Shown here one piece after another: positions 20,895 to 36,724 of a stretch of DNA of 36,724 bases. How positions within the stretch are numbered: the stretch's first letter is position 1; each line of letters begins with the position of its first letter. Both the position numbers and the translations under genes were made by a program. Origin of the DNA: an uncultured Ectothiorhodospiraceae bacterium (GTDB taxonomy: Bacteria > Pseudomonadota > Gammaproteobacteria > Nevskiales > Oceanococcaceae); NCBI GenBank assembly GCA_937141935.1, contig CAKZQS010000051.1, forward strand, positions 1-36,724, written 5' to 3'. The notes beneath the pieces were generated by a model, which was given only the letters and a program-made list of their open reading frames with translations, was not told the DNA's origin and did no database searches.

Positions 20895-20957
20895 CGCGGG
20901 CGTCTTCTTGGCGTATGGCTCGGTTTTCAGCCGGGCCGCTGGCGCCGCGCCACGCCC

Positions 20958-21986
<1,029 letters not shown>

Positions 21987-22110
21987 CGTTGTCCTATGGC
22001 GCGGCGGCCTGACGGCCCGAGCCCAGCAGGATACGCTGGGCGCCAGGACGGATCAGGGCAGGGCAGGCGGTGAACGAAGCAATGATCGCGACGGCCGGGC
22101 AGGGACGGCG

Positions 22111-22608
22111 ATGAGCGTGCTGGACGGCATGCAGTGGGATGTGGTGGCCAACCACCTGCTGCACCTGGCCATTGCCTATGTGCTGGCGCTGCCCATCGCC
22201 TGGGATCGCGAGGCGCACTCGCGCGGCGTGGGGCTGCGCACCTTCCCGCTGGTGGCCATCGGCTGTTGCGCCTTTTTGCTGATCGGTCGGGAGGTGCTGG
22301 AGGGTTCGGAATCGCACGCCCGGCTGCTGTACGGCCTGATGAGCGGCATCGGCTTCATCGGCGGCGGCGCGATCCTCAAGCAGGACAGCGAGGTCTCGGG
22401 TACGGCCACGGCCGCGGCGATCTGGGCCACCGGCGCCATCGGCGCCGCGGTGGCCTGGCAGCACTATGAGATCGCCCTGGTGCTGGGGCTGATGACCTTC
22501 GTGACCTTCCGCTTCGTCACGCCGCTGAAGGCGGTGGCGCAGGAACGCGGTGGGCGCAACAATGCCGAGCACGGCGCGCGCGACGGGGAGGACCGGGACG
22601 GCCATTGA
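22111..22608 (+). CDS. mgtC: MgtC/SapB family membrane protein
   Basis: A 165-residue inner-membrane protein. The family signature is clear: LPIAWDREAHSRGVGLRTFPLVAIGCCAFLL, LYGLMSGIGFIGGGAILKQ, GTATAAAIWATGAIGAAVAWQHYEIALVLGLMTFVTF. About four helices precede a hydrophilic, charged tail. Classical MgtC carries a C-terminal ACT-like cytoplasmic domain; this one stops short of it and belongs to the short class. ATG at 22111 has GGGA upstream. MgtC modulates the F-type ATPase and magnesium-starvation responses in pathogens; for short environmental forms the role is unclear. Divergent from the exchanger-like gene over 124 bases. Confidence 0.85.
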   Translation: MSVLDGMQWDVVANHLLHLAIAYVLALPIAWDREAHSRGVGLRTFPLVAIGCCAFLLIGREVLEGSESHARLLYGLMSGIGFIGGGAILKQDSEVSGTATAAAIWATGAIGAAVAWQHYEIALVLGLMTFVTFRFVTPLKAVAQERGGRNNAEHGARDGEDRDGH

Positions 22609-22654
22609 GCGCGCCATCCCCGCCGCATCCATCGCGCCCGCGCCCAGCCGCGGC

Positions 22655-23200
22655 TCAGTGCGGGTTGTAGGCGGCGGTGAGCTCGCGCCGACGCTGGCCA
22701 AAGCGCGAACGCAGCGCCTGCTGGTGCGCCGGGTCCAGCTGCATGTCGGCGGCGGGCATCAATTCGGCTTCCTCGCGGGCCATGGTCTTGCGCACGCAAT
22801 CCGCCAGCTTGGCGAAGCGGCGCGGCCAGTCCGGGTCGTCATAGGGGCGCATGTGCAGCTCCTGCAGCATCGTGTGGATCTGCTGCTGGGCGCGGGCGAT
22901 GTCGCTGCGTGTGGCCTCCAGCGCGGGCTGGTTCAGTGCCGGGTGCACAACCTCGGCCTCGGCGTTCATGTGCGCCCGCAGCGCGCTGCGGATCTTCGGA
23001 AAGTAATGCGCGCGCACGGCCTCATCCTCGGCCATCCATTGCAGGCGCTGCATCAGCGCGTCAATGGCCGCGTGATCGTGGCGCAGGGCCTCGCCCAGCG
23101 GGCCGCCTTCCGGCGCAACCGCGGTCAGCTCCTGGGTGGCGAAGGCCGCCGCGGCCGGCAGATCACCGGATTCGGGGCGGGTGGGGGCTGTGCTGCTCAT
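22655..23200 (-). CDS. Hemerythrin-domain protein
   Basis: A cytoplasmic 181-residue four-helix protein. The di-iron ligand pattern of HHE proteins is visible: LRHDHAAIDALM, HMNAEAEVVHPAL, IHTMLQELH and REEAELMPAAD. The N-terminal 30 residues are Ala/Pro-rich and probably disordered. ATG at 23200 has TTGGAG upstream. Proteins of this type sense or store oxygen, nitric oxide or iron; which applies here cannot be told. It converges on mgtC with 46 bases between stops and faces away from glrR. Confidence 0.82.
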   Translation of the reverse strand: MSSTAPTRPESGDLPAAAAFATQELTAVAPEGGPLGEALRHDHAAIDALMQRLQWMAEDEAVRAHYFPKIRSALRAHMNAEAEVVHPALNQPALEATRSDIARAQQQIHTMLQELHMRPYDDPDWPRRFAKLADCVRKTMAREEAELMPAADMQLDPAHQQALRSRFGQRRRELTAAYNPH

Positions 23201-23567
23201 CGTCAACTCCAATGTCGTTTGGGGCGGCCGCCGGAAAGGGGAATGGCGACCTAGGCTGCCCGGCCTTGGGGGCAAGTGCAGCACGCCGCCCCAGGCTTTC
23301 GAATCAACCATGACCAACGCCATCGCGACGCGATCGCAGGCGCCGGCGAAACCCGTGACCAAGGGCATGAAACGGTGTTCTGGCGGGGCTTGGCGGCCTA
23401 GTGTCGCCCTCGGAAGCCACCCACGGCGCTGCGCTCGCAGCCGCCGCGCAGACCGTCGCAACAGGCGGGTGGGGTGGCCAGCAGCAACGGAGCAAACGCC
23501 GCGATGCGAACGGGCCCACAATGCAAATTCACCGGTCTCGCCAGGCCGGTGGCGCGGAGCCGCGCCC
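23201..23567. other. 367-base divergent intergenic region
   Basis: No gene is supported between the hemerythrin and GlrR starts. Short open frames lack ribosome sites. A CACAATGC element at 23517-23524 could be a -10-type box for glrR, similar to the one before mscS. I searched by eye for the sigma-54 pattern TGGCAC-N5-TTGC and found no convincing match. Confidence 0.5.
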
Positions 23568-24917
23568 ATGGCTGAGGCCCGCGCTGCGCGTCTGCTATTC
23601 GTCGACGACGATGCCGAGTTGCGCACCGTCATGCGCATGCGCCTGGAGGCCGCCGGCTACGAGGTCGTGGACGCCGACAGTGCCGAGCAGGCCCTGGGGC
23701 TGATCGACAGCGCCCGGCCGCAGCTCGTCATCTGCGATCTGCGCATGCCCGGCATGGGCGGCATCGACATGCTGGAGCGGCTGCAGCACACCCGTCCCGG
23801 CCTGCCGGTGATCATCCTGACCGGCTTTGGCGACATCCCCGACGCGGTGCGCGCGACGAAATCCGGCGCCGTCGAATTCATGACCAAGCCGGTGGAGTCC
23901 AAGGACCTGCTGGCCTGCATTGAGCGCTACCTGGGCAGCGCCGGCGCCGAGCCGGGCGACGCGGCCTGGGAGGGCACCGTGGTGGCGCGCAGTCAGCAGA
24001 TGCGCAGCCTGCTGGACGATGCCAGCCGCATCGCACGCACCGATTCCAGCGTGCTGATCTCCGGCCCCAGCGGCGCCGGCAAGGAGGTCGTGGCCCGGGT
24101 GATTCACGACGCCAGCCCGCGCAGCGAACGCCCCTTCATCGCCATCAACTGCGGCGCCGTGCCGGCCGAGCTGCTCGAATCCGAACTCTTTGGCCACAAG
24201 AAGGGCGCCTTCACCGGCGCCCACAGCGACCACCTGGGTCTGTTCCGCTCGGCCGCCGGGGGCACCGTGTTCCTGGACGAGATCGGCGACATGCCGGCCG
24301 AGCTGCAGGTCAAGCTGCTGCGCGTGTTGCAGGAGCGCGAGGTGCGCCCGGTGGGCGAGACCCGCTCGGTGCCGGTGGATGTGCGCGTGCTCTCGGCGAC
24401 CCACCGCAACCTGCAGCAACTGGTGCAGTCGCAGGGCTTTCGCGAGGATCTGTATTACCGCCTGAACGTCGTGCAGCTCGAGCTGCCGCCGCTGGATGCC
24501 CGCCGCGAGGATATCCCCGCGCTGGTGGCGCACCAGTTGCGCAAGCTGGCCGAGCGCGGCGCGCCGCGGCGGGTCTATGCGCCGGAGGCCATGGAGCTGC
24601 TGGTGGCCGCCAACTGGCCGGGCAACGTGCGCCAGCTGTTCAACGTGGTCGAGCAGAACGTCGCGTTGGCCTCCTCGCGGGTCATCAGCGCCGCGCTGGT
24701 GCAAAAGGCCATCGGCGGTAACAGCAGCCGCACGATGCCCTCCTTCGACGAGGCCCGTGCCGAGTTCACCCGCAACTACCTCTGCCAGCTGCTGGAGCTG
24801 GCCGACGGCAACGTCAGCCATGCCGCGCGCCTGGCCGAGCGCAACCGCACCAACTTCTACAAGCTGCTCAGCCGCCACGGCATCGACCCGCAGAACTTCA
24901 AGTCCCAGGCCGCCTAG
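23568..24917 (+). CDS. glrR: Sigma-54-dependent response regulator GlrR
   Basis: NtrC-family response regulator of 449 residues. Receiver domain with phosphoacceptor D57 (VICDLRMP) and the conserved LTGFGDIPDAV and TKPV. AAA+ domain with Walker A GPSGAGKE (166-173), the sigma-54 contact loop GAFTGA (213-218), Walker B GGTVFLDEIGDM and the arginine-finger region FREDLYYRLNVV. The C-terminal helix-turn-helix NVSHAARLAERNRTNFYKLLSRHGI is the GlrR type, and the final DPQNFKSQAA aligns with E. coli GlrR. In enterobacteria GlrR acts with kinase GlrK and drives sRNA glmY and rpoE. Here neither glrK nor glnB is adjacent, so its kinase must lie elsewhere. Confidence 0.88.
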   Translation: MAEARAARLLFVDDDAELRTVMRMRLEAAGYEVVDADSAEQALGLIDSARPQLVICDLRMPGMGGIDMLERLQHTRPGLPVIILTGFGDIPDAVRATKSGAVEFMTKPVESKDLLACIERYLGSAGAEPGDAAWEGTVVARSQQMRSLLDDASRIARTDSSVLISGPSGAGKEVVARVIHDASPRSERPFIAINCGAVPAELLESELFGHKKGAFTGAHSDHLGLFRSAAGGTVFLDEIGDMPAELQVKLLRVLQEREVRPVGETRSVPVDVRVLSATHRNLQQLVQSQGFREDLYYRLNVVQLELPPLDARREDIPALVAHQLRKLAERGAPRRVYAPEAMELLVAANWPGNVRQLFNVVEQNVALASSRVISAALVQKAIGGNSSRTMPSFDEARAEFTRNYLCQLLELADGNVSHAARLAERNRTNFYKLLSRHGIDPQNFKSQAA

Positions 24918-25032
24918 GCCCGGCCGGCGCGGCGCAGTTCATCGCTGCGCGCCCTCCCGCCCACGCGGCGCCCCCGACTCCCGCGGCCCCGGTCGCGCTC
25001 CCTGGCAGCCCACCGCGGGCCGCTGCGGCATA

Positions 25033-25052
25033 CTCGATCGCGTCTAATCGAG
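25033..25052. promoter_or_regulatory. Inverted repeat CTCGAT-N8-ATCGAG
   Basis: Perfect 6-base arms immediately upstream of the start of the gluconate-dehydrogenase-like operon, overlapping its ribosome site (GAGGAG, 25050-25055) and just after a CATACT -10-like hexamer. It could be an operator or a leader hairpin that covers the ribosome site. Confidence 0.35.
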
Positions 25053-25062
25053 GAGACATGCG

Positions 25063-26031
25063 ATGAGCGGCAAGGATCGGCTGCGCGCGACGCGGCGCCT
25101 GCCCTTGAGCCGGCGCGAACTGCTGCGCCGCGGTGGCGCCATTGGCCTGGTGGCCTTCGGCCCGCTGGGCTGCGGCGAGGGCGGCCGCATCGGCGTGCCC
25201 ACCCGTGACGCCGGCAGCCCGCCGGATGGCGGCTTTCTGGATGCGCAGGAGCTGCGCACGCTCGGCGCGGCCTGCGACGTCTTCGTCCCCGCCGACACCG
25301 ATCCCGGCGCCGTGGCGGCGGGCTGTGCGGGCGCCATCAACGGCCTGCTCTCGGCCTTCGCCTTCGACCCGCCGCTGATTTACGCCGGCGGGCCATTCTC
25401 CGACCGCGGCGGCGCCGTGGAGAACGATTTTCTGGACTTCGTGCCGCTGGACCCCTACGAGGAGCTGGCCTGGCGGCTCAAGATCGAGGGCAGCCAGGGC
25501 CGCCCCGAGCGCGAGTTCAACGGCCCGCGCACCGGCTGGCAGCAGATCTACCGCGAGGGCCTGGCGGCGCTGGATGCCCGGGCCGGCGGCGACTTCGCCG
25601 CACTGCCGGCACCGGCGCGCGAGCTGATCCTGCGCGAGGGGCAGGGCGCCATTGGCGCGCTGGTCGATGTGGCCTTCTTGCAGACGCTGGATGCGATGTA
25701 TGGCGCGCCGGAATACGGCGGCAACCGCGACCTCGTCGGCTGGGGCTTCACCGGCTACGACGGCGACGTGCAGCCGCGCGGCTACAGCGACGAGCAGGTC
25801 GAAAACCCGGACAACCCCGGCGTGTTCGACCTGCTGCCGGGCGGCACGCTGCCCGCCGCGCCGCTGCTGCCGCTGCCCGATGCCGCGCAGCGCACGCAGA
25901 TCCATGCGGCCCTGCGCGAGATGGTGGGCATGGCCTCGGCCGAATTCGCGCTGGGCATCATGCTCGGCAGCAACGGTTCGCTGGCGCAGTTGCGCGCCGA
26001 CTGCGCGCGGCTGCGGCCGCGGGAGGCCTGA
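25063..26031 (+). CDS. Gluconate 2-dehydrogenase subunit 3 family protein, Tat-exported
   Basis: A 322-residue small subunit of the membrane-bound, periplasmic GMC dehydrogenase type. It starts with a twin-arginine signal (SRRELLRRGGAIGLVAFGPLGC). The Cys following could be lipidated. The mature part has LRTLGAACDVFVPADTDPGAVAAGCAGAINGLL, GWQQIYREGLAALDARA and MYGAPEYGGNRDLVGWGFTGYDGD, all typical of this family. ATG at 25063 has GAGGAG 7 bases upstream. The stop is separated by one base from the start of the GMC subunit. Known homologues act as the export chaperone and small subunit for a Tat-less GMC partner; the third, cytochrome c subunit is not next door. Confidence 0.88.
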   Translation: MSGKDRLRATRRLPLSRRELLRRGGAIGLVAFGPLGCGEGGRIGVPTRDAGSPPDGGFLDAQELRTLGAACDVFVPADTDPGAVAAGCAGAINGLLSAFAFDPPLIYAGGPFSDRGGAVENDFLDFVPLDPYEELAWRLKIEGSQGRPEREFNGPRTGWQQIYREGLAALDARAGGDFAALPAPARELILREGQGAIGALVDVAFLQTLDAMYGAPEYGGNRDLVGWGFTGYDGDVQPRGYSDEQVENPDNPGVFDLLPGGTLPAAPLLPLPDAAQRTQIHAALREMVGMASAEFALGIMLGSNGSLAQLRADCARLRPREA

Positions 26032-26032
26032 G

Positions 26033-27745
26033 ATGGCCGGCAGCGCGATTGTCATTGGGTCCGGCCCGGCCGGCAGCATCACCGCCTGGGCGCTGGCCCA
26101 GGCCGGCTGGGAGGTCATCGTGCTGGAGCGCGGCCGCAACCTGCGTCCCGGCTTTGGCGAGGTGCCCAGCAGCGAGCTGGGCACGCTGTATTCCAGCGAC
26201 GAGGTCAAAAGCACCCGGGCCTTTGGGTTTCCCGACCCCTTGCTGGAGCCGATGACCGGCCGCACCCAGAGCGAGGCCGAGGAGGGCCAGGCGCGCAGCG
26301 CGCAGGGCCAGGTGGTCAACATGGGCGCCGCCGTGGGCGGCACCGCGTTGCACTACAACGCCAAGTTTCCGCGCTTCTGGCGCCAGGATTTCACCCAGCT
26401 CTCGGACCTGGGCCCGGTGGCGGGTGCGCAGGTGGCCGACTGGCCGATCCGCTATGAGGATCTGGCGCCCTTTTACGACGAGGTCGAGGCGCAGATCGGC
26501 GTGCAGGGCGATGTGGCGCAAATGCCGGACTTCGTGCTGGCGCAGGCGCCGCGCAGCGGCGACTTCGTCATGCCGCCCAACCCCACCAACTACGCCGCCA
26601 AGCTGCTGGCCGAGGGCGCGCGGCGGTTGGGCTTCGCGCCCTTTCCCTACCCGGCGGCGGTCAATTCCACCGACTTCGATGGCCGCCCGCGCTGCAACTC
26701 CTGCGGGCTGTGCTCCGGGTTTGGCTGCCCGATCAACGCCCGTGGCGACGGGCTGGTGAGCTACCTGAACCCCGCGGTGCGCAGTGGCCGGGTGCGGGTG
26801 ATTCCACGCGCGCTGGCCTACCGCATCGAAACCGACGCCAGCGGCCGCCGGGCCCGCGCCGTGCATTACTACGACGCGCAGCACCGCTCGCACAGCCTGT
26901 CGGCGGACAAGATCCTGCTGGCCGGCAGCCCGATCCAGACCGCGCGCCTGCTGCTGCTGTCGGCCAGCGCCGCCCACCCCAACGGGTTGGGGAACCGCTC
27001 CGATCAGGTTGGCCGCAACCTGATGTTTCACAACTTCATCATCGGCGGTGCGCTGTTCGAGCGCGATGTGCAGTCGCTGCGCGGCCAGAGCACCACGCTG
27101 GAGTTCGATGACCTGGTCGGCCCCTTCACCGGCCCCGAGGTGCAGGCCCTGGGGCTGCCCTACCTGAAGGGCGCGCTGGTGCAGCTGGGCTCGGGCCTGC
27201 CCTTGCTCAGCGAGGCCTACACCTACGCCGGCTTCTCGGCGCAGAGCTTCGGCGCCGTGCACAAGAACCTGATGCGCCTGTCGCCGATGCGCCGCCGCGT
27301 GGCCGGCCTGCAGTTCGTTGGCGAGGATCTGCCGCAGGCGGCCAACCGCGTGGACCTGGACCCGGATGTGCGCGACTGGCACGGGCTGCCCTCGCCCCGC
27401 GTGACCTATGCGCCGCACGCGCACGAGAAGGCGGGCTCACTGTATTTCGGCCCGCAGCTCGAGGCCCTGTGCCTGGCCGCGCCGGGGGCCATCGGCGCCG
27501 CCATCCTGCCCAACCCGCTGTTGTCGGACGCCGCGCCCAGCACCTTCCACCAGGCCGGCACCGCGCGTATGGGCAACGACCCGGAGACCTCGGTCTGCAA
27601 CGCCGATGGTCGGCTGCACGAGGTCGACAACGTGCATGTGGTCGACGGCTCCACCTTCCCGACCTTCCCGGGCTTCAACCCCACGCTGACGATCCTGGCC
27701 AACGCGCTGCGCATCTCGCGCCGCATCGCCGCCGGCCAGGCCTGA
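26033..27745 (+). CDS. GMC-family FAD dehydrogenase, large subunit, with Cys cluster
   Basis: A 570-residue glucose-methanol-choline oxidoreductase acting on a sugar or polyol. FAD-binding Rossmann motif SAIVIGSGPAGSITAWALAQAGWEVIVLERG (4-34); VNMGAAVGGTALHYNAKFPRF (96-116). The catalytic His lies in HQAGTARMG (H506), with the C-terminal GFNPTLTILANALR giving the second active-site residue N549. Four cysteines, C221, C224, C227 and C232, lie in RCNSCGLCSGFGCP. They match the Cys-rich region that holds an iron-sulfur cluster in three-subunit FAD glucose/fructose dehydrogenases. It has no signal peptide, so it probably hitch-hikes on the upstream Tat subunit. ATG at 26033 follows GGGAGG. The substrate cannot be predicted. 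Confidence 0.88.
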   Translation: MAGSAIVIGSGPAGSITAWALAQAGWEVIVLERGRNLRPGFGEVPSSELGTLYSSDEVKSTRAFGFPDPLLEPMTGRTQSEAEEGQARSAQGQVVNMGAAVGGTALHYNAKFPRFWRQDFTQLSDLGPVAGAQVADWPIRYEDLAPFYDEVEAQIGVQGDVAQMPDFVLAQAPRSGDFVMPPNPTNYAAKLLAEGARRLGFAPFPYPAAVNSTDFDGRPRCNSCGLCSGFGCPINARGDGLVSYLNPAVRSGRVRVIPRALAYRIETDASGRRARAVHYYDAQHRSHSLSADKILLAGSPIQTARLLLLSASAAHPNGLGNRSDQVGRNLMFHNFIIGGALFERDVQSLRGQSTTLEFDDLVGPFTGPEVQALGLPYLKGALVQLGSGLPLLSEAYTYAGFSAQSFGAVHKNLMRLSPMRRRVAGLQFVGEDLPQAANRVDLDPDVRDWHGLPSPRVTYAPHAHEKAGSLYFGPQLEALCLAAPGAIGAAILPNPLLSDAAPSTFHQAGTARMGNDPETSVCNADGRLHEVDNVHVVDGSTFPTFPGFNPTLTILANALRISRRIAAGQA

Positions 27746-27938
27746 GGGCGGTCGCGGGCCTCCGGACAACTTCAGGTGGGGCCCAAGCGCCGGCCCCGGG
27801 GGCCTATACTGCCCGGCACCGGCGGCGCGCCGGGCCGGCTCCGCCAGATCCTGGTGCCGAGCCGGGGGGAAGGACACCTCGGGGACAGCGCGCGGCAGGC
27901 GCCGCGCCGGCAGGCCGCCATGCGCGATGGGAGCGTTG
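27746..27938. other. Intergenic leader before the degenerate GGDEF gene
   Basis: No gene. It contains a TATACT hexamer at 27805-27810 that could serve as a -10 box, giving a leader of about 120 bases before the ATG at 27939. The leader is rich in G/C hairpins. I do not see the conserved core of a c-di-GMP riboswitch. Confidence 0.4.
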
Positions 27939-29060
27939 ATGGAGCACAGTGACGACTGGGAAAAGATCGCCCGCCGCGACGTGACCGAGGGCCTGTGGCG
28001 GCAGCGCACGATGCTGCTGGCGGGGGGCTGGTTGTCGACGCTGACCGGCGTGGGGCTGTGCGCCATCGCCCTGTTCGTGCGCGACGTGCCGCCGCTGGTG
28101 GCGATCAGCCTGGTGGCCACCGCCTGCATGCTGATGCTGATGGCCGCAGGCATGCAGTTCGCGCCCAAGCGCTACACCTATCGCATCGTCGTCGCCTGGC
28201 TGCTGGCGGTGCAGTTCACGATCCTGTCGCAGCTGGCGCTGTTCTACTTTGGCCCCGAGCGCGAGATCTTCCTGTCCGGCCGGGTGCCGCTGCTGGTGAC
28301 GGTGCTGCCGGTGATGCTGGTGGCGGCGCGGGCCTACCTGAATGCGGCCGACGCGCGGCTGCTGAATATGGTCTTTCTGGTGGCCCTGGCGGCACTGAGC
28401 CTGGGCTTTCTGCTGCTGTACTGGAACGTCGCCGACTCGCGCTATGCGCTGCTGCTGATGGCGTCGGCCTCGCTGCTCGCCGCGCCGCTGACCGAGCTGC
28501 TGCTGGCCTTGCACGATCGCGCCCGCACGGTGGCGGCGCAGGCGCGGCGGGAGGCGCTGGAGCGGGCCGAGGGCCGCGCGCTGGCCGCCGAGAACGCGCT
28601 GCGCACCGATGAGCTGACCGGTCTGCGCAACCGGCGCGGCGTCAAGGATGCCGTGCGTCGGGCCTTCGAAACCCGGCGCCTGACCGGCGTGGCCCGGGTC
28701 GATCTGCGCGAGCGCGCGCGGCTGGAGGTGCGCCTGGGCGCCGAGCGCTGGCAGCAGCTGGTGCTGGCGATGAGCCGCGCGCTGAGCCAGTCCACGGCGG
28801 GCGACGAGCGCCTGGGCCGTTCGGCGGAGAGCCAGTTCACGCTGTGGACCGAAGGGCTGGCCGACGAGGAGGCCTGGGGGCCACGCGTCGAGGCCGTGCG
28901 CGCGCAGGTGCAGGCCGCGCTGCGTGCCGAGCACTACGAGGTCGACGTGGTCGCCGGTGGTGGCGTCTGGCCCGGCGGCTCGAATGCCGATCTGGCACTG
29001 GAGCAGGCCGACTTCGACTGCTACGTCGGCAACCCCCGGGAGACGCCGGCGGCGCGCTGA
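27939..29060 (+). CDS. Membrane protein with degenerate GGDEF domain
   Basis: A 373-residue protein: six hydrophobic segments (about residues 25-190) then a coiled-coil-like linker (RARTVAAQARREALERAEGRALAAENAL) and a GGDEF-fold domain. The domain entry motif DELTGLRNRRG (224-234) is intact. The signature loop that should read GGDEF or GGEEF is AESQF (296-300), and the metal and substrate residues of the RVDLRERARLEVRLG segment are also altered. The late ADLALEQAD.DCYVGN stretch corresponds to the usual ADxALYxAK end. It should therefore not make c-di-GMP; a receptor or purely structural role is possible. ATG at 27939 is chosen because GGGAG lies 8 bases upstream; an ATG at 27927 lacks one. 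Confidence 0.8.
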   Translation: MEHSDDWEKIARRDVTEGLWRQRTMLLAGGWLSTLTGVGLCAIALFVRDVPPLVAISLVATACMLMLMAAGMQFAPKRYTYRIVVAWLLAVQFTILSQLALFYFGPEREIFLSGRVPLLVTVLPVMLVAARAYLNAADARLLNMVFLVALAALSLGFLLLYWNVADSRYALLLMASASLLAAPLTELLLALHDRARTVAAQARREALERAEGRALAAENALRTDELTGLRNRRGVKDAVRRAFETRRLTGVARVDLRERARLEVRLGAERWQQLVLAMSRALSQSTAGDERLGRSAESQFTLWTEGLADEEAWGPRVEAVRAQVQAALRAEHYEVDVVAGGGVWPGGSNADLALEQADFDCYVGNPRETPAAR

Positions 29061-29152
29061 GCGGCCGGACGCGCCCGCGGCCAGCGCGGGCGGCCGCAAC
29101 GGGGGCGGTGGCCTGACGCGGCCGGCCCGCCCGTCGCCCCATGCGCGCCCGG

Positions 29153-29192
29153 CTGTCGCGCAATGCGTGGCGGCCTGTCGCACAATGCGTGC
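29153..29192 (+). repeat. Two 18-base direct repeats, 22-base offset, before mscS
   Basis: CTGTCGCGCAATGCGTGG at 29153 and CTGTCGCACAATGCGTGC at 29175 match at 16 of 18 positions. A 22-base offset puts them on the same face of the helix, two turns apart. The second includes CACAATGC, a possible -10 region, about 30 bases before the mscS start. They may be paired binding sites overlapping the promoter. Confidence 0.65.
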
Positions 29193-29220
29193 TTAGCTCC
29201 CCCAAGCGATAAGGAACGCC

Positions 29221-30375
29221 GTGGACTCGCTCGAGGATCTCAGGCAGGTCGTCCTGGGTAACACGCTGGTCGAATGGGCGCTGGCGCTGGGCATCGTGAC
29301 CGCCGCGATGCTGCTGCTGGCCGGCGTGCTGTGGCTGGTCATCCACCGCCTGGCGCCGCGCGCCGAGCGCTCGCAGACCCGCGTCGACGACGCCGTGGTG
29401 GCCATGCTGCGGCGGACCCGGCTGTGGCTGCTGTTCTTCCCGGCCCTGCTGCTCGGCACGCGGGTGCTGGAGCTGCCGGAGCGCGGTGTCGATGCCCTGG
29501 GCTTCGTGACGACCATCGCGCTGTGCCTGCAAATGGGCCTGTGGATCGACGCGCTGGTGGGCGGCTGGATCGCCGCCTCGCGCGAGCGCGCCGTGGCCAG
29601 CAACGCCGCCGCGGCCACCAGCCTGGGCGCGCTGAACCTGATTGCGCGCATCCTGCTGTGGTCGATCGTGCTGCTGGTGGCGCTGGACAACCTCGGCGTC
29701 GACGTCACCGCGCTGGTGGCCGGCCTCGGCGTGGGCGGCATCGCCGTGGCGCTGGCGGTGCAGAACATCCTGGGCGATCTCTTCGCCTCGCTGTCGATCA
29801 TTGTCGACAAGCCCTTCGTCGTGGGCGATTTCATCATCGTCGACAGCTATATGGGCACCGTCGAGCACGTCGGCCTGAAAACGACCCGGCTGCGCAGCCT
29901 GTCCGGCGAGCAACTGGTGTTTTCCAACAGCGACCTGCTCGCATCGCGGGTGCGCAACTACAAGCGCATGCACGAGCGCCGCGTGCTGTTCAAGTTCGGC
30001 GTGCTCTACCAAACGACGCCGGAGCAGCTCGAGGCGATCCCCGGCATCGTGCGCGAGGCGGTCGAAAGCTGCGCCAAGACCCGCTTCGAGCGCGCGCACT
30101 TCCACCTCTTTGGCGAGTCCTCCTACGACTTTGAGGTCGTCTACTGGATGCTCGAGCCCGAGTACGCGCTGTACATGGACGCCCAGCAGGCGATCAACCT
30201 GCACATGGTGCGGGCCTTCGCCGAGGCCGGCATCGACTTTGCCTACCCCACGCGCACGCTGTTCGTGGAAAACCCGCTGCGCATCGAGTCGGGCAGCTCG
30301 GGTGGCAGTGGCGGCGGTGGCGGCGGCGGCGGTGGCGGCGGCAACGCCGATGCCCGCGAGGGCCATGCGGCCTAA
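29221..30375 (+). CDS. mscS: Small-conductance mechanosensitive channel family protein (MscS)
   Basis: A 384-residue inner-membrane channel that would release solutes under hypo-osmotic shock. Three or four N-terminal helices precede the pore segment, LVALDNLGVDVTALVAGLGVGGIAVALAVQNILGDLFASLSI, with the expected small-residue packing. The beta domain follows: DKPFVVGDFIIVDSYMGTVEHVGLKTTRLRSLSGEQLVFSNSDL. Start is GTG at 29221 with AAGGAA upstream; no better ATG is in frame. The extreme C-terminus is a Gly-rich tail, GSSGG.S then eleven Gly, then NADAREGHAA. The stop lies inside the next gene, which starts at 30365. A solute-release channel complements the trehalose, cation and glutamate functions nearby. 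Confidence 0.88.
   Translation: MDSLEDLRQVVLGNTLVEWALALGIVTAAMLLLAGVLWLVIHRLAPRAERSQTRVDDAVVAMLRRTRLWLLFFPALLLGTRVLELPERGVDALGFVTTIALCLQMGLWIDALVGGWIAASRERAVASNAAAATSLGALNLIARILLWSIVLLVALDNLGVDVTALVAGLGVGGIAVALAVQNILGDLFASLSIIVDKPFVVGDFIIVDSYMGTVEHVGLKTTRLRSLSGEQLVFSNSDLLASRVRNYKRMHERRVLFKFGVLYQTTPEQLEAIPGIVREAVESCAKTRFERAHFHLFGESSYDFEVVYWMLEPEYALYMDAQQAINLHMVRAFAEAGIDFAYPTRTLFVENPLRIESGSSGGSGGGGGGGGGGGNADAREGHAA
30304..30344 (+). repeat. GGC/GGT simple repeat coding a poly-Gly tail
   Basis: A run of glycine codons (GGC, GGT) broken once by AGT near its start encodes GG-S followed by eleven Gly at the MscS C-terminus. Such tracts are prone to slippage in multiples of three. Confidence 0.75.
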
Positions 30376-30759
30376 GCCACGCGCCCACGCCAGAGCCGCC
30401 GGGCAGAACGCCGCCCAGGAACGCGGTAAGGGGCAGCGCGCCGACGGGCAGAAGGCCACCGGGCAGCAGGCCGCCGGGGCACAGGCGGGGGCGGACGCCC
30501 GTGGCGACAGCGGCGAGCCGGCCCGCGCCGCTCCCGCGACACCCGCAACGCCCGCGGCCGAGCACACGGCGGACCAGGCCGACGTGCTGGTCATCGGCGC
30601 CGGCCTGATCGGGCTGGCCAGCGCCTATTACCTGCAGCGCGCCGGGCTGCGCGTGCGGGTGCTGGAGCGCCACGCCGATGTGGCGCAGGAGACCAGCCAG
30701 GCCAACTCCGGCATGGCCACGCCGAGCATGTCCGAGCCCTGGAACACGCCGGAGGGCCC
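30365..30759 (+). CDS. DadA-like FAD-dependent amino-acid dehydrogenase, N-terminal fragment
   Basis: ATG at 30365 overlaps the mscS stop by 11 bases. The first 75 or so residues are low-complexity Ala/Gln/Gly. Then DVLVIGAGLIGLASAYYLQRAGLRVRVLERHADVAQETSQANSGM is the FAD-binding N-terminus of DadA-type D-amino-acid dehydrogenases, followed by TPSMSEPWN. Beyond about 30755 the frame is unrelated and ends at a stop at 30811. At least 300 residues of the enzyme are missing. Homology ends where a siderophore-receptor gene on the other strand begins, so the truncation is a junction rather than a biological stop. The long N-terminal extension is unusual; a start closer to DVLVIG is possible but no good codon is visible. 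Confidence 0.7.
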
Positions 30760-30760
30760 G
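30736..30760. other. Chimeric junction, block 2 / block 3
   Basis: About 20 bases read sensibly both ways. On the plus strand they continue DadA (EPWNTPEG); on the minus strand they complete the TonB receptor motif RVEVLSGPSGVFQG. Left of it the sequence is block-2 style; right of it GC and codon use change to the alphaproteobacterial type. A shared short word joining two unrelated genes in opposite orientation is the classic form of a graph misassembly. Confidence 0.8.
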
Positions 30761-31251
30761 GATAGCACCTCGACACGGTCAAAGAAGACGAGGTCAGGGG
30801 CTGTGCCGTAAAGGCTGAGGAACGGCCGTGGCGCACCGTCCACATTGTAGGTGAAGACCTCGTGACCGCGGGAGTAGAGCGAGCCGTCGAAGCCGTTGCC
30901 GGTTGCCGTGGTGACGTTCGGGAGCAGATAGCCGGCTTCTTCCAGTGTGCTTACGTTCTGATCGTCCAGCCGTTGCCGGGTCAGGACGTTGACGGTCTGC
31001 GGGATCTTGCGGATATCCGTTGGCTGCTTGTAGCCGACCGTCGCACGGTTGGTTGCGTAGGAGCCGGTTTCTTCCGTGACCACGCCCGGATCGCCTTCGA
31101 CCACGATGCTGTCGAGTACAACCGGCTCGTTGCCTGCTTGCTGGGCCTGTGCCGTGTCCGAAAGCGCAACAACGCTCGCCATGGCAGTGCCGAGCAGGAG
31201 CGCATGCATGACGTGCCGATTGCAATCTTCGCTTTTCCGAGCGTAAACCAT
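30737..31251 (-). CDS. TonB-dependent siderophore receptor, N-terminal fragment
   Basis: Outer-membrane iron-siderophore receptor of the FhuE/FoxA/FpvA type, only the first 170 or so residues. ATG at 31251 begins a signal peptide (MHALLLGTAMASVVALSDTAQAQQ). The plug domain follows, with VLDSIVVEG as TonB box region, TEETGSYATNRATVGYKQPTDIRKIPQTVNVLTRQRLDDQNVSTLEEAG and FDRVEVLSGPSGVFQG. Homology stops at FQG, where GAG(E/D)PGG should follow; the beta barrel (over 500 residues) is missing because of the junction. It is divergent from an AraC regulator, a usual arrangement for siderophore uptake. The gap contains a 20-base palindrome and an AT-rich Fur-like stretch. Confidence 0.85.
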
Positions 31252-31301
31252 GTTCTGAACTATCCCCCAAAGCTCTTGTAAATTATGACCTTTCGGTATC
31301 T

Positions 31302-31322
31302 GAAATTGACAATCATTCGCAA
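31302..31322. promoter_or_regulatory. Possible Fur-type iron box
   Basis: The stretch around TTGACAATCATTCGCAA resembles an iron-regulator box (alternating GATAAT/ATTATC-like half-sites) and sits in the divergent gap between a siderophore receptor and its regulator. The match is loose, so this is supported mostly by context. Confidence 0.3.
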
Positions 31323-31338
31323 TTGATCGATCATTTGC
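31319..31338. promoter_or_regulatory. 20-base near-perfect palindrome
   Basis: GCAAT-TGATCGATCA-TTTGC is symmetric at 18 of 20 positions, centred on TGATCGATCA. It lies 68 bases upstream of the receptor start and 66 upstream of the AraC start. A symmetric site suggests a dimeric repressor rather than the AraC protein, which usually binds direct repeats. Confidence 0.5.
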
Positions 31339-31404
31339 GTGATCGTCAATCCCGTTTGCCCGCTGGTCAGAGCCAATTGTCTCGTCACGGGTAGGTTGTC
31401 TCTA

Positions 31405-32373
31405 ATGCTTGATGCAGAGCTCAGTTTTGAAGACCTGTCCCGCCAGGTTGAAGCGGATGCAAGCTTTTACCGGATGCTTGGCAGCACGGGGGAAGAGGCG
31501 CCGGCCGTGTTGCGGGGCGGCTTTTTTATCGAGAGCTTCCGCTCCGGATTGCACATCCATGCAACGGATGCGGTGGAGCAGAGCGATACGGTAACGGAGC
31601 TCCGCCTCGACCCGCAGGTCTCGGTTTCCATTGTGTTCGCGGGAGCGCCCTTGGCGGCGATCGACGGGGTAGAGCTCGATCTGTCCGTTCCCGATGGTGC
31701 GCAGGCGGGCGGGCTCATCTGGTCCGTCGCCAGACCGGCACTGCTGAGGCGCACTATCCGGACCGGTCAGACGGTGAAGAAGGTCAACGTTTCGGTCAGT
31801 AAAAGTTGGATCGAGGAATTTCTCGGTCCGGATGTCGGGCAGGATCATGCTGTCCGGCAACTCGCAGAAAGTCATCTTGAGATACACTATTGGCACCCCT
31901 CGGCGGATACGGTGCATGGCGCCCGCAAACTGCTTGCATGCCTTGGCAGCGACGGTTTGCTGAACCGGCTTTCGCTTGAAATGCTTGCTCTCGGCGTTTT
32001 ACGGGATGCTTTCGCCAGTATCGGGCAGCCGGAAGGATCTTCCGAGGACGGTGACCGCGCGGTGCTGGTGCATCGCTATATATTGGACAATCTCGGCGGG
32101 ACGCTCACGCTGACGTCAATCGCGGCGGCCAACGGGATGAGCGTCAGCACCATGCAGAGGGTTTTCAAGGAAGCATACGGGGTTCCCGTTGTTGAGCATC
32201 TCAGACGCGCCCGCCTCGATCTGGCGCAGAAAGCCCTGATAGAAGAGCATTTGCCCATTCAGCAGGCCGCGCATATCGCCGGATATACCTCGGCCGCAAA
32301 TTTCGCCACGGCTTATCGCCGGTTTTATGGCCATGCGCCATCGGAAGCACGGCGGGGAGGGGAGCAACAGTAA
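31405..32373 (+). CDS. AraC-family transcriptional regulator (siderophore-receptor type)
   Basis: A 322-residue regulator. The N-terminal sensor domain (FIESFRSGLHIHATDAVEQSDT..) is of the PchR-like kind. The C-terminal double helix-turn-helix is clear: LTLTSIAAANGMSVSTMQRVFKEAYGVPVVEHLRRARLDLAQKAL and then PIQQAAHIAGYTSAANFATAYRRFYGHAPSE. ATG at 31405 is chosen; the longer frame starts at GTG 31339, directly abutting the palindrome, and its extra residues are not conserved-looking. It is divergent from the siderophore receptor, so it probably senses the ferric siderophore and activates the receptor. Low-GC codon use compared with block 2. Confidence 0.82.
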   Translation: MLDAELSFEDLSRQVEADASFYRMLGSTGEEAPAVLRGGFFIESFRSGLHIHATDAVEQSDTVTELRLDPQVSVSIVFAGAPLAAIDGVELDLSVPDGAQAGGLIWSVARPALLRRTIRTGQTVKKVNVSVSKSWIEEFLGPDVGQDHAVRQLAESHLEIHYWHPSADTVHGARKLLACLGSDGLLNRLSLEMLALGVLRDAFASIGQPEGSSEDGDRAVLVHRYILDNLGGTLTLTSIAAANGMSVSTMQRVFKEAYGVPVVEHLRRARLDLAQKALIEEHLPIQQAAHIAGYTSAANFATAYRRFYGHAPSEARRGGEQQ

Positions 32374-32610
32374 AAGCCCTTATTGTCCGAAGGACAGTCG
32401 ATTACCGGAACACCGTATGTGACGCTGGAATGTTGTCTTTGCAGACACGGGTAGAGAGTTCCGAGTGGGATCGCAATCGCGGTTGCAGCCAATTGGTCGC
32501 CGTATCCTGCAGGATTGGAAGGCTTATCTAGTTGAATTGGTTATTCACAATGCTTTTTCAGATTGTATTTTGTCGTAACAATTGAGTGTGTGTGACCCAT
32601 AATCGATTTT
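32374..32610. other. AT-rich gap before the SPINDLY gene
   Basis: Noticeably A/T-richer than the rest of the window. A short hairpin, TGTCC-GAA-GGACA (32384-32396), follows the AraC gene. The gap should contain the promoter of the transferase, but I cannot place -35 and -10 boxes with confidence. No gene seen. Confidence 0.4.
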
Positions 32611-35334
32611 GTGGATAATGTCCTCATGACTGGGCAGCCAGCAGTTCTCCAAGCTCTTCTTCAGCAAGCAGTCTCGGAGCATGGAGCAGGACGGGTCGCC
32701 AAGGCCGAGCCGCTTTACCGCGAAGTTCTGTCTCGCTCGCCCAAGCATCCAGTTGCATTATACCTGCTCGGAGTGCTTGCCCTTCAAGTCGGGCGCCCGG
32801 ATACGGCGGTCGAGCTGGTTTCTAGCTCACTGGCTGAACAGCCGAACAATGCCGAAGCGCATTATAACCTGGGAAACGCCTATCTCGTCCTCGGTCGCAG
32901 TGCTGATGCGGAACACAGCTTCAGGGAAGCAATCCGCTGCCAGCCGGACTATGCAGCGGCGCATTACAATCTTGGAAATCTGGAAATAGGAGCAGACAAG
33001 TTGGAGGCGGCTGAAAGCAGTTTTCGAGCCGCTGTTCGATATTCTCCAGATCTTGCCCAGGCTTGGTGCAATCTTGGTTTGGTTCTTGGTCAGCAGGATC
33101 GGAACGAGGAGGCTGTCGCGGCCTATCGTATGGGCCTGAGCAAGGCGCCAGGACTCGCCGAGGGACACAACAATCTGGGAAATGCGCTTGCCGGGCTTGA
33201 ACGCTATGACGAGGCGGTTACGAGCTATCGCGATGCACTTTCGGCAAACGCGGTGTATGGGACCGCGTACCGCAACCTTGGTACTGCGTTGCAGAAGCGG
33301 GGCGATGAAAGGGATGCAGACCGGGCGTTCCGGCAGGCCTTGCTTCTTGATCCCGGGAGCGTGGAAAATTGCGTTAATTTTGCCGCCGTGCAGAAAATGT
33401 CCGGGTTTTATGAGCAGGCGTTCCGATGGAGCCGTTTTGCTCTGAGTATCCATCCGGGCTATTCCGCGGCTCTGTTAGGGTGCGGGGCGGCTCAATTAGG
33501 GATGAAGGAATTTGGGGCAGCGGCCAATTCCTTCAGGTCCGTTATCCAAGCAGACCCTGGGAACGCTGCCGGATGGGGTAATTGGGGCATTTCTCATCAA
33601 GAGCTCCGAGACATGGATGCGGCATGGGATGCCTACCGCAAATCGCTCTGTCTGGAGCCCAGAAATATTGTGTTCATAGCGAACAGCGTTCTGGTTTTGC
33701 AAAGTTTTCTAGATCTCCCAAAGGCGCTCCAGTTGGGAGCGCGCGGGCTGGCCGTCGAACCGCTTTCGCCGGCGCTCCTTTCGGTCTGGTCCGGGGCATT
33801 ACGGGCGTCTGGTCATGTAATTGATGCAGAACGCTGGAAACGCGCGGTCATTTGCGTGGAGCCCGGGGACCCGGCGCACTATGTAGAGCTGAATGTGGTG
33901 CGGCGCGAGCTCAGTAAGTTGCACGATGCGGAACGAGACCTGCGCCGGGGGCTAATCATTAGGCCCGGTCATACAAGGGCTCTGACGCAACTGGGCGAAC
34001 TGCTCGCTGAGGTAGGGCGTCTTGATGAGGCCGTTGCACTCGGTCGACAGGCAGTGAAGGGGGCGCCGGACAGCGTTCTCGCTCACCATTCCTTGCTATT
34101 CTACCTGCACTATAAGCCGACTCTGTCGACAGCTGAAATGATGAAGTATTACAGATGTTTCGATGAAGCCATCGGCAAGCCGCTCCGTCGTCTCTGGCAG
34201 CCGCATCATAACCGGCGCGATCCGCAGAAGCGACTCAGGATAGGTTATGTTGGAGGAGTGTTTTATTGGCATTCCAGTGCAAGTTTTTTTCTCCCTTTAT
34301 TGAAGAATCATGATCACAGTCAACATGAGATCTTCTGCTATGCGTCCTACTTGCGTGGCGAAGATGATATCACTGAGGTAATGCGCTCACACGCAGATCA
34401 CTGGGTCCCCACTCTGGGAATGAGTAATGCCGCACTGGTTAAACGTATTCGCGATGACGGGATTGATATTCTCGTTGACCTCTCGGGACATACTAGAGGC
34501 AACAGGCTTCGGGTTTTCGCTGAAAAGCCGGCACCTGTTTCGTTCCACTGGCTGGATCATGGTGTGACGACAGGTCTCTCCGCGATAGACTATTTTTTGG
34601 GTGATCCAGTGTTTACTCCGGCGGCGGCGGATCTTTTCACCGAGAAAATCTGGAACCTTCCCAAGTCTGTCTTTCCCTTTGAGACCATCGGGTGGACGCA
34701 AACAGAAACACCGTCGCCGATAGAGCTGAACGGTTATGTTACCTTTGGCTCGGTTGCCCGTGCGATGAAGCTCAGTGATGATGTTCTCAAAGTCTGGGCG
34801 GACATTCTGCATCAAACACCAGGAGCCCGTTTCAGCCTGTTTAATCATGCCTGCCGGGAGCCATCGGTCCAGGACGCTATGGTTAGCCGGTTCGGCCGAA
34901 TGGGAATTGATCCGGCACGGTTAAATATTGGATTCTGTACGCAATCTCAGGAAGCGTATGCTCAAATCGACATCATGCTCGATAGCTTTCCACATAATAA
35001 TGGCGTGACAGGGTTCGAAAGTCTTTATATGGGGCTGCCTTCGGTGACTTTGCGGGGCAAGGCGGCCATTGGAACGCTTGGGAGTTCCATGCTGACGCAG
35101 ATCGGACGGACCGATTGGAGCGCTGAAACGACCGAGGATTACGTTCATATAGCCTGTAAACTTGCGTCTGATCCCCAGGCTTTGCCCGGGCTTCGGGCCA
35201 GTTTGCGTGAGGAAATGCGTTCTTCATATGTGATGGACGGTGCCTCTTTCGCGCGGGATTTTGAAGCTGCGTGTCGGGGGATGTGGAAGAAGTGGTGTGC
35301 CGAGAGCGAAGCTGTTCTTCAAGAGGGTGGCTAG
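32611..35334 (+). CDS. TPR / SPINDLY-type O-linked N-acetylglucosamine transferase
   Basis: A 907-residue cytoplasmic GT41-like protein. Residues 1-510 are about twelve tetratricopeptide repeats (for example AEAHYNLGNAYLVLGRSADAEHSFREAI and AAHYNLGNLEIGADKLEAAESSFRAAV). The catalytic half starts at RLRIGYVGGVFYWHSSASFFLPLL with the conserved His, followed by DDGIDILVDLSGHTRGNRLRVFAEKPAPVSFHWLDHGVTTGLSAIDYFLGD, FGSVARAMKLSDDVLKVWADIL and DIMLDSFPHNNGVTGFESLYMGLPSVTLRGKAAIGTLGSSML. Several positions depart from the family consensus, such as FGS-VAR for FGSFN. A donor UDP-GlcNAc is assumed, not shown. GTG at 32611 or ATG at 32626 could be the start; neither has a strong ribosome site. Monocistronic, after a 237-base AT-rich gap. 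Confidence 0.85.
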   Translation: MDNVLMTGQPAVLQALLQQAVSEHGAGRVAKAEPLYREVLSRSPKHPVALYLLGVLALQVGRPDTAVELVSSSLAEQPNNAEAHYNLGNAYLVLGRSADAEHSFREAIRCQPDYAAAHYNLGNLEIGADKLEAAESSFRAAVRYSPDLAQAWCNLGLVLGQQDRNEEAVAAYRMGLSKAPGLAEGHNNLGNALAGLERYDEAVTSYRDALSANAVYGTAYRNLGTALQKRGDERDADRAFRQALLLDPGSVENCVNFAAVQKMSGFYEQAFRWSRFALSIHPGYSAALLGCGAAQLGMKEFGAAANSFRSVIQADPGNAAGWGNWGISHQELRDMDAAWDAYRKSLCLEPRNIVFIANSVLVLQSFLDLPKALQLGARGLAVEPLSPALLSVWSGALRASGHVIDAERWKRAVICVEPGDPAHYVELNVVRRELSKLHDAERDLRRGLIIRPGHTRALTQLGELLAEVGRLDEAVALGRQAVKGAPDSVLAHHSLLFYLHYKPTLSTAEMMKYYRCFDEAIGKPLRRLWQPHHNRRDPQKRLRIGYVGGVFYWHSSASFFLPLLKNHDHSQHEIFCYASYLRGEDDITEVMRSHADHWVPTLGMSNAALVKRIRDDGIDILVDLSGHTRGNRLRVFAEKPAPVSFHWLDHGVTTGLSAIDYFLGDPVFTPAAADLFTEKIWNLPKSVFPFETIGWTQTETPSPIELNGYVTFGSVARAMKLSDDVLKVWADILHQTPGARFSLFNHACREPSVQDAMVSRFGRMGIDPARLNIGFCTQSQEAYAQIDIMLDSFPHNNGVTGFESLYMGLPSVTLRGKAAIGTLGSSMLTQIGRTDWSAETTEDYVHIACKLASDPQALPGLRASLREEMRSSYVMDGASFARDFEAACRGMWKKWCAESEAVLQEGG

Positions 35335-35622
35335 ACACGATGCCCAAGACGCAGCGTGGCGGCATGCGGAGTAACGCTGGCAGATCGATCTGGGCATTCT
35401 TCTGGCCGGACGCCGTTCGAATTATCCGCGCAGGCTGGTTTTCGTATAAGTAATTAAATAAATTTTGAAATAAATTGAGCGTCTTGTTTACGTTTTTTTA
35501 CAATCTTTGATGCTTTTCTCCCTGCATAGGCTGTTTCGCTGAGGTGGAAACTAAATGTTTTAGTTGAAATGCCTCTCGAAAGCCTTCTAGATCGAAAAAA
35601 TAAAGTCTACGGGGCGGGATAC
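35335..35622. other. Gap between SPINDLY transferase and chemoreceptor
   Basis: 288 bases, with an AT-rich core (35445-35510). No convincing gene is present. An in-frame ATG at 35569 would extend the chemoreceptor by 18 residues that do not resemble its N-terminus. Confidence 0.45.
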
Positions 35623-36310
35623 GTGAAGAACATCAATCTATCGACGAAGATTCCAGCGCTCGTTGGAATAGCAACCGCGCTTTCCATTCTGGTGGTCGCA
35701 TCCTTCAGCTATTTTCAGTCCGCGCATCAGCTTGAAAAGCGCGCGGTCGATCAGTTACAGGCCATGTCGGTGGCGCGTGTCGATGCTCTGAAGACCCTGC
35801 TTGATAGCATCCGCGACGATATGCTGATCGTGGCCGCCAACAGCGGTACGGACAAAGCGCTGAACGGCTTCAAGTTCGGCTTCCGGTTGTTTGCCCGGAA
35901 GGGCGATCCGACGGAGACGCTGCAGAAGCTCTATATCGTCGACAACCCCAATCCCGATGGCAGCAAGCAGCTTCTGGATCTGGCGGAGGACGGCTCCGGT
36001 TACTCCAAATATCACGGCGAAAACCATCCCTGGTTCCGCAGGCTGCAGGAAAGCCGCGGTTATGCGGATGTGATGCTGATCGATTCCGACGGCAATATTG
36101 TCTACAGCGTTCTGAAGGCTGCGGATTATGCAACCAGCCTGACTGAAGGCCCGGCGAAGGACACGGAACTGGCGACGGTATTCACCCGGCTGACCGAAAA
36201 TCCCGAGCCGGGGCAGGTCGTGATGAGTGATTTCCACGGCTATGCACCGCGCGGCGATGCGCCGACGGCCTTCATTGCGACGCCGCTTTTCGTCCGGGGT
36301 GAGTTCGCCG
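35623..36310 (+). CDS. Methyl-accepting chemotaxis protein, N-terminal fragment
   Basis: GTG at 35623, preceded by GGGGCGGG, begins MKNINLSTKIPALVGIATALSILVVASFSYF, one cytoplasmic start and a membrane helix typical of rhizobial-type chemoreceptors. A periplasmic sensor domain follows, with HQLEKRAVDQLQAMSVARVDALKTLLDSIRDDMLIVAANSGTDKALNGF, the PAS/Cache-like GYSKYHGENHPWFRRLQESRGYADVMLIDSDGNIVYSVLK, and ATPLFVRGEFAGG. The second membrane helix, HAMP and signalling domains are missing because the homology ends near 36310. The frame then stays open to the window edge, but only by chance through unrelated sequence. Ligand unknown. Confidence 0.82.
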
Positions 36311-36320
36311 GCGGTCTACG
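36300..36320. other. Chimeric junction, block 3 / block 4
   Basis: Around GAGTTCGCCGGCGGTCTAC the chemoreceptor reading (GEFAGG) hands over to a different frame (SSPAVYAANMQI) belonging to another gene. GC rises at the same point and a terminator plus new gene start follow. It has the same form as the junction at 30740. Confidence 0.7.
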
Positions 36321-36535
36321 CGGCCAACATGCAGATCCCCGAGCCGCAATACGTGGCACAGCCGCAGTCGACCCGGCAGGCACAGTCGAACCGGCAGCCG
36401 CAGGCGGTGCGTGTGTCTCAGCCCCAGGCGCAGGTGCGCGTGGTCAACCAGCCCTACTATCGCGCGCAATCCTCTCAGCCGCAGGCTCAGACGCGGTCGT
36501 CCGGGTCGTCGCAGCTCACGCGCCGCGACCGGTAA
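36306..36535 (+). CDS. C-terminal fragment of a Gln/Ser-rich protein
   Basis: The frame ends at TAA 36533-36535 and reads VYAANMQIPEPQYVAQPQSTRQAQSNRQPQ... then PQAQVRVVNQPYYRAQSSQPQAQTRSSGSSQLTRRDR. It is a low-complexity Gln/Pro/Arg/Ser tail of a probably exported or DNA-binding protein whose N-terminus lies beyond the junction. I do not recognise the family. A strong terminator 30 bases after the stop supports it as a real gene end. Confidence 0.5.
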
Positions 36536-36564
36536 GACCGGCGGGCATCCTGGCAAGGCATTGG

Positions 36565-36589
36565 GGCCCCCGCTTCGGCGGGGGCCTTT
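36565..36589 (+). terminator. Rho-independent terminator
   Basis: GGCCCCCGC-TTCG-GCGGGGGCC, a 9-base-pair perfect stem with the stable TTCG tetraloop, followed by TTT. It lies 29 bases after the stop of the Gln-rich fragment. Confidence 0.85.
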
Positions 36590-36713
36590 CACGTTGGCAC
36601 CACCGGGGCAGGGTGCCTGACGTCGCGGCGGGTTTTCGCATCGCGCATCGCCGGAGGGGTTTTCCTGATCCCGCAACGCGGCTAAGTCTGTCCGGCAGCA
36701 CGAGGGGAGTCTC

Positions 36714-36724
36714 ATGGGCTATAC
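36714..36724 (+). CDS. Start of an unidentified gene at the window edge
   Basis: ATGGGCTATAC (M-G-Y-T or similar) follows a good ribosome site, GAGGGGAG, at 36702-36709. Only three codons are visible. Aspartate-semialdehyde dehydrogenase genes in alphaproteobacteria often begin MGY, but three residues are not evidence enough to name it. Confidence 0.4.

Follow-up and report, generated by a model that had tools for sequence, protein, structure and literature searches.

A contig that fuses half of a dadA-like gene to half of a siderophore receptor gene is very probably an assembly chimera of two bacterial genomes

Sequence comparisons point with high confidence to contig C51 being an assembly chimera of two bacterial genomes, in which the half-genes at the join are an artefact and not biology. 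The window, that is, the whole stretch of DNA analysed here (36,724 bp), is the entire contig, one of 52 in draft genome G000 (3,565,674 bases, 98.29% complete, 2.14% contaminated). We favor a chimera because the two sides have different origins, the other half of dadA lies at the start of another contig (C2), the overlap at the join is short, another gene of C51 is truncated at a second switch, and contig ends elsewhere in the assembly overlap by 77 bases. Given mixed DNA, an assembler of the de Bruijn-graph type would have joined the end of a host contig, within dadA, to a piece of the genome of a Nisaea-like alphaproteobacterium, through a chance word of about 21 bases common to both genomes. 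The features concerned are as follows.

1–30,752: host segment, G+C about 0.70, ending within dadA (tetranucleotide composition)
29,221–30,375, plus strand: gene for an MscS-family mechanosensitive channel, the final host gene that is whole ahead of the junction (Pfam; DNA relatives in the same genus and order)
30,365–30,751, plus strand: dadA-like gene for an FAD-dependent D-amino acid dehydrogenase, 5′ part, with the rest at G000:C2:1–861 (Pfam DAO, NCBIfam NF001933)
30,732–30,752: junction, a 21-base overlap word that fits both identities (start of the Nisaea alignment; end of dadA likeness)
30,732–36,317: Nisaea-like segment, G+C about 0.57 (alignment to N. nitritireducens locus L035)
30,732–31,251, minus strand: TonB-dependent siderophore receptor gene, 5′ part, truncated in the plug domain (89–90% amino acid identity over 170 residues to two Nisaea species; Pfam Plug)
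31,339–32,373, plus strand: AraC-family regulator ORF, divergent from the receptor (Pfam HTH_18; Nisaea match at the same position)
32,611–35,334, plus strand: TPR plus family-41 glycosyltransferase-like protein (Pfam; 79% amino acid identity in N. nitritireducens)
35,569–36,318, plus strand: chemoreceptor-like gene, 5′ part, broken off at the second switch (Nisaea match; weak Cache-domain match)
36,318–36,724: third segment, 407 bases, G+C 0.688, the end of an ORF and, by eye, a terminator-like hairpin (no informative match)

Base composition separates the two sides of the junction. The change that the original prediction had described is a drop in G+C from about 0.70 to about 0.57, with values of 0.69–0.73 across eleven 3-kb chunks to the left (the last overlapping the tenth) and 0.56–0.57 across two to the right. 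Tetranucleotide distances were taken to the mean of ten stretches from other host contigs and to two Nisaea loci. Left chunks lie close to the host contigs and far from Nisaea (0.15–0.19 versus 0.45–0.58, n = 11), while right chunks show the reverse (0.53–0.57 versus 0.19–0.21, n = 2). The counterpart of this stretch is part of the Nisaea reference loci, and the contig's last 407 bases fall in the second right chunk. Among control chunks from host stretches, 2/46 are closer to Nisaea; two control chunks, at the starts of contigs C4 and C5, have a G+C below 0.62. Judged by their genes (DNA cytosine methyltransferase; integron integrase), both of these starts look like mobile DNA. The C4 start (L080 1–3000) is a low-G+C island with a DNA cytosine-5 methyltransferase (TIGR00675), and the adjoining ORF, which has no NCBIfam match, is at a guess a restriction enzyme. 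At the C5 start (L081 1–3099), an integron integrase gene matches TIGR02249 over positions 2–213 of 315 in that frame, its 246.9 bits falling short of the cut-off of 265; next to it, about 2 kb of DNA is low in G+C and has ORFs that resemble cassettes.

DNA matches put the left side within the lineage of the bin itself or close to it but are not decisive. A search with positions 29,221–30,740 matched 39 of 41 genomes (its own included), though the majority of the listed matches are GC-rich and short. G001, a genome of the same genus, shows a 78% match over part of mscS, and better mscS matches come from another family of the order. The host part matched 748 records of a plasmid collection, the 20 listed being, where annotated, a sigma-54 regulator (GlrR kind) or MscS, and these matches are too weak for naming the host. 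We assign the left side to the host because its composition fits the bin's contigs and its dadA resumes on C2; separate placement of the two sides thus came out as predicted, the right side being Nisaea-like. No 16S gene was found in the host genome by a search that recovered only 9/14 control genomes, and given the five controls missed this absence does not prove a metagenome bin.

The interrupted dadA gene gives strong evidence, at the level of sequence, that host DNA runs on from C51 into C2. On C51 the candidate start is the ATG at 30,365, which overlaps the mscS stop codon, and the piece covers positions 1–56 of 353 in Pfam DAO and 3–59 of 429 in NF001933; the C2 piece, beginning at base 1, covers DAO positions 100–352 and NF001933 positions 138–417. 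With the ATG at 30,365 as the true start, the Rossmann motif would be preceded by 72 extra residues (30,365–30,580) in which Ala, Gly, Gln, and Arg are abundant. We conclude continuity because the two pieces are complementary, with about 78 codons absent between them, and because they point to the same genes in seven relatives. When relatives were searched with each piece, both matched one gene (for example, G002:C3:168,090–168,257 and 168,498–169,340), and the best-scoring seven relatives were identical for both pieces (G002, G003, G004, G012, G024, G026, and G030). Spacing between the halves in those seven is about 240 bp, so that C2 starts about 234–240 bp past the break; an uninterrupted host dadA was not seen.

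A host dadA split at the join with its other half at a contig end would likewise result from a real insertion, in which about 5.6 kb of Nisaea-like marine alphaproteobacterial DNA entered the dadA of a distant proteobacterium by illegitimate microhomology recombination and disrupted it. We consider such an event improbable for reasons that lie in the foreign segment and its far end (below). Comparison with an empty site in a near relative was precluded by three results. ORFs from 20,001–30,760 and from C2:1–14,000 showed no synteny around dadA with G002 (19 kb) or G003 (an 8.7-kb contig) at a cut-off of E 1e-15, the sole match being the C2 half of dadA itself. At the mscS loci of G001, G022, G034, and G020, mscS matched and neither dadA piece did. 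Finally, the same-genus G001 has no clear dadA: the C51 piece finds no match there, and that of the C2 piece is weak (E 1.1e-4).

The right side is a stretch of Nisaea-like DNA. It is colinear with N. nitritireducens at 79.5% nucleotide identity in an alignment of 5,634 positions that runs from 30,732 to 36,317, and its four larger genes have the same order there. Scanning a species-genome collection with the 170-residue receptor fragment recovered six relatives, among which Nisaea denitrificans (89%) and N. nitritireducens (90%) are closest. The receptor gene is intact in 6/6 of them; the intact Nisaea protein has 715 residues and passes the TIGR01783 TonB-siderophore cut-off. Its missing 545 residues found no match in the host genome (a search run without a positive control). 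Residues 23–342 of the AraC ORF are 86–88% identical to Nisaea (88% for N. nitritireducens), and the gene may begin some codons downstream of the ORF start at 31,339. The TPR-glycosyltransferase gene is present in the N. nitritireducens locus, and nothing matches it in that of N. denitrificans (L034), where the aligned parts flanking the absent gene are about 170 bases apart. Chemoreceptor-like residues 15–250 are 90–92% identical to Nisaea (92% for N. nitritireducens); the Cache-domain match of this part is below Pfam's cut-off, and we call it chemoreceptor-like from a reading by eye of the intact Nisaea protein.

Other searches set this segment apart from the host lineage. A 3-kb query (30,770–33,770) had no match in 39/40 relatives and a 63-bp match in the remaining one, and the Nisaea-like part had no match in the plasmid collection. 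Against a real insertion, no integrase or transposase that would mark a mobile element was found among the segment's four larger genes, and both composition and gene order are those of Nisaea. A repeat search within 30,300–31,400 found no repeat bounding the junction. Elsewhere, the N. denitrificans locus matches host contigs C9, C27, and C52 at 64–85% over 66–710 bp, which are probably conserved genes.

At the junction itself, a word of 21 bases belongs to both identities. The original prediction had a word of about 20 bases at 30,736–30,760; its position is instead 30,732–30,752. Nisaea DNA aligns gap-free from base 30,732 rightward, and dadA likeness stops at the P of PWNTP, base 30,751, or at 30,752 if the next codon is GGN as in G002 and G003; this host-side boundary is set by protein conservation only and is uncertain by a base or two. 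Within the word, each of two Nisaea species differs from the window by one base. On the plus strand the dadA frame reads ...SMSEPWNTPEGP, including PWNTPEG, and on the minus strand the receptor frame reads ...VEVLSGPSGVF, with QGS as the next codons. Both genes cease to resemble their families here, each having lost its remainder as predicted, and the shared bases had been held to be correct for both families. For the receptor this stands, since GPSGVFQG occurs in 3/6 relatives and GPSGVYQG in the other 3/6; for dadA only PWNTP fits, since EG occurs at that place in 0/7 relatives shown and two same-family relatives read PWNSPG.

Both frames are open across the shared bases, as they would be in a functional antisense gene pair whose dadA and receptor fragments share coding bases. 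We give that idea almost no credence: the receptor is intact in every relative found, dadA is intact in same-family relatives, and neither half could make a whole protein. The dual coding (PWNTP/GPSGVFQG) almost certainly follows from the word being shared and does not reflect a functional overlap. When 221 bases spanning the junction were used as a query, no whole match was found in 84 other genomes of the order, so the junction, whose recurrence in an independent isolate would have counted against a misassembly, was seen in 0/84. The 21 listed short matches give an independent indication of the break: five of them touch the word, four approaching from the left and ending at 30,737, 30,750, 30,751, and 30,754, and a fifth that starts at 30,732 and runs right.

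A shared word of this length is expected by chance. About 21 bases of microhomology could support the recombination that a real insertion requires. About 33 exact 21-mers should be shared between two such genomes by chance under an independent-base model with these compositions and assumed sizes of 3.5 and 5 Mb. Shared k-mers counted among the compared sequences number 1261 (12-mers), 361 (13-mers), 101 (14-mers), 27 (15-mers), and 2 (16-mers), with no 17- or 18-mers, a fall-off in line with tens of 21-mers for whole genomes. Since tens are expected, the junction word is not significant per se and needs no biological reason.

De Bruijn-graph assemblers leave contig overlaps of fixed length k, and SPAdes and metaSPAdes are commonly run with k = 21, 33, 55, and 77, with 21 first and 77 last. 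Comparison of the 104 contig ends of the draft genome revealed six exact terminal overlaps of at least 15 bases. Five are 77 bases long and the sixth is 52, and no end of C51 or C2 takes part in any of them. The 77-base overlaps suggest the assembler's last k and likely contig adjacencies. A false join at the first assembly step (k = 21) would use a 21-base word. Across the same 104 ends, the first junction word is absent from other contig ends and the word at the second switch is located only in C51's own last 500 bases. We infer that the join was made by the assembler and not by recombination in a cell, that the sample was mixed, and that the k = 21 step was the origin. That an assembler had joined two genomes through a short shared word was the core of the original prediction, and the Nisaea-like right side and the resumption of dadA on C2 both support it.

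The far end of the segment also argues against a real insertion. At about 36,317 a second abrupt switch occurs, where Nisaea identity stops within the chemoreceptor-like gene at residue 250 and the sequence is unrelated thereafter. The foreign segment starts and stops inside genes, and the DNA past the second switch, instead of supplying what dadA lacks, holds the tail of a different ORF. These last 407 bases had no match in plasmids, either as DNA or as protein, and only 25-bp matches, in two genomes, among 397 other genomes of the phylum sample; their 78-residue ORF end belongs to no Pfam or NCBIfam family. A third genome and host DNA are both possible sources, and host DNA would lend some weight to a real insertion.

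With a chimera as the preferred explanation, the only significance of the junction is cautionary: the final 6 kb of C51 should not be assigned to the host genome. Left uncorrected, the siderophore receptor and AraC regulator, the glycosyltransferase-like protein, and the chemoreceptor would be misread as horizontal gene transfer, and the overall genome scores given above would not flag the contig.

Comparison with known systems leaves no biological novelty at the junction. The split gene resembles DadA-type D-amino acid dehydrogenases (NF001933, DAO) in having its N-terminal Rossmann part on C51 and positions 138–417 on C2, and differs from them in the missing stretch of about 78 codons and, should translation begin at the ATG at 30,365, in the low-complexity 72-residue extension. 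The right segment resembles the siderophore receptor-AraC locus of Nisaea nitritireducens DSM 19540 and N. denitrificans DSM 18348, being colinear with the former and sharing with the two strains 89–90% of amino acids in the receptor part, 86–88% in AraC, and 90–92% in the chemoreceptor part; unlike those loci, it has its receptor and chemoreceptor genes cut. Divergence at this level fits another Nisaea-like species rather than either strain. Chimeric contigs that mix organisms can arise from short overlap lengths, which a review gives among other causes (PMC7641418). From such interspecies chimeras of de Bruijn-graph assembly we found no feature that distinguishes C51, which shares with them two segments of different taxonomic origin, truncated genes to either side of the join, a natural continuation for one side elsewhere in the assembly, a short exact word of assembler k-mer length at the join, and 77-base terminal overlaps among the other contigs of the same draft genome.
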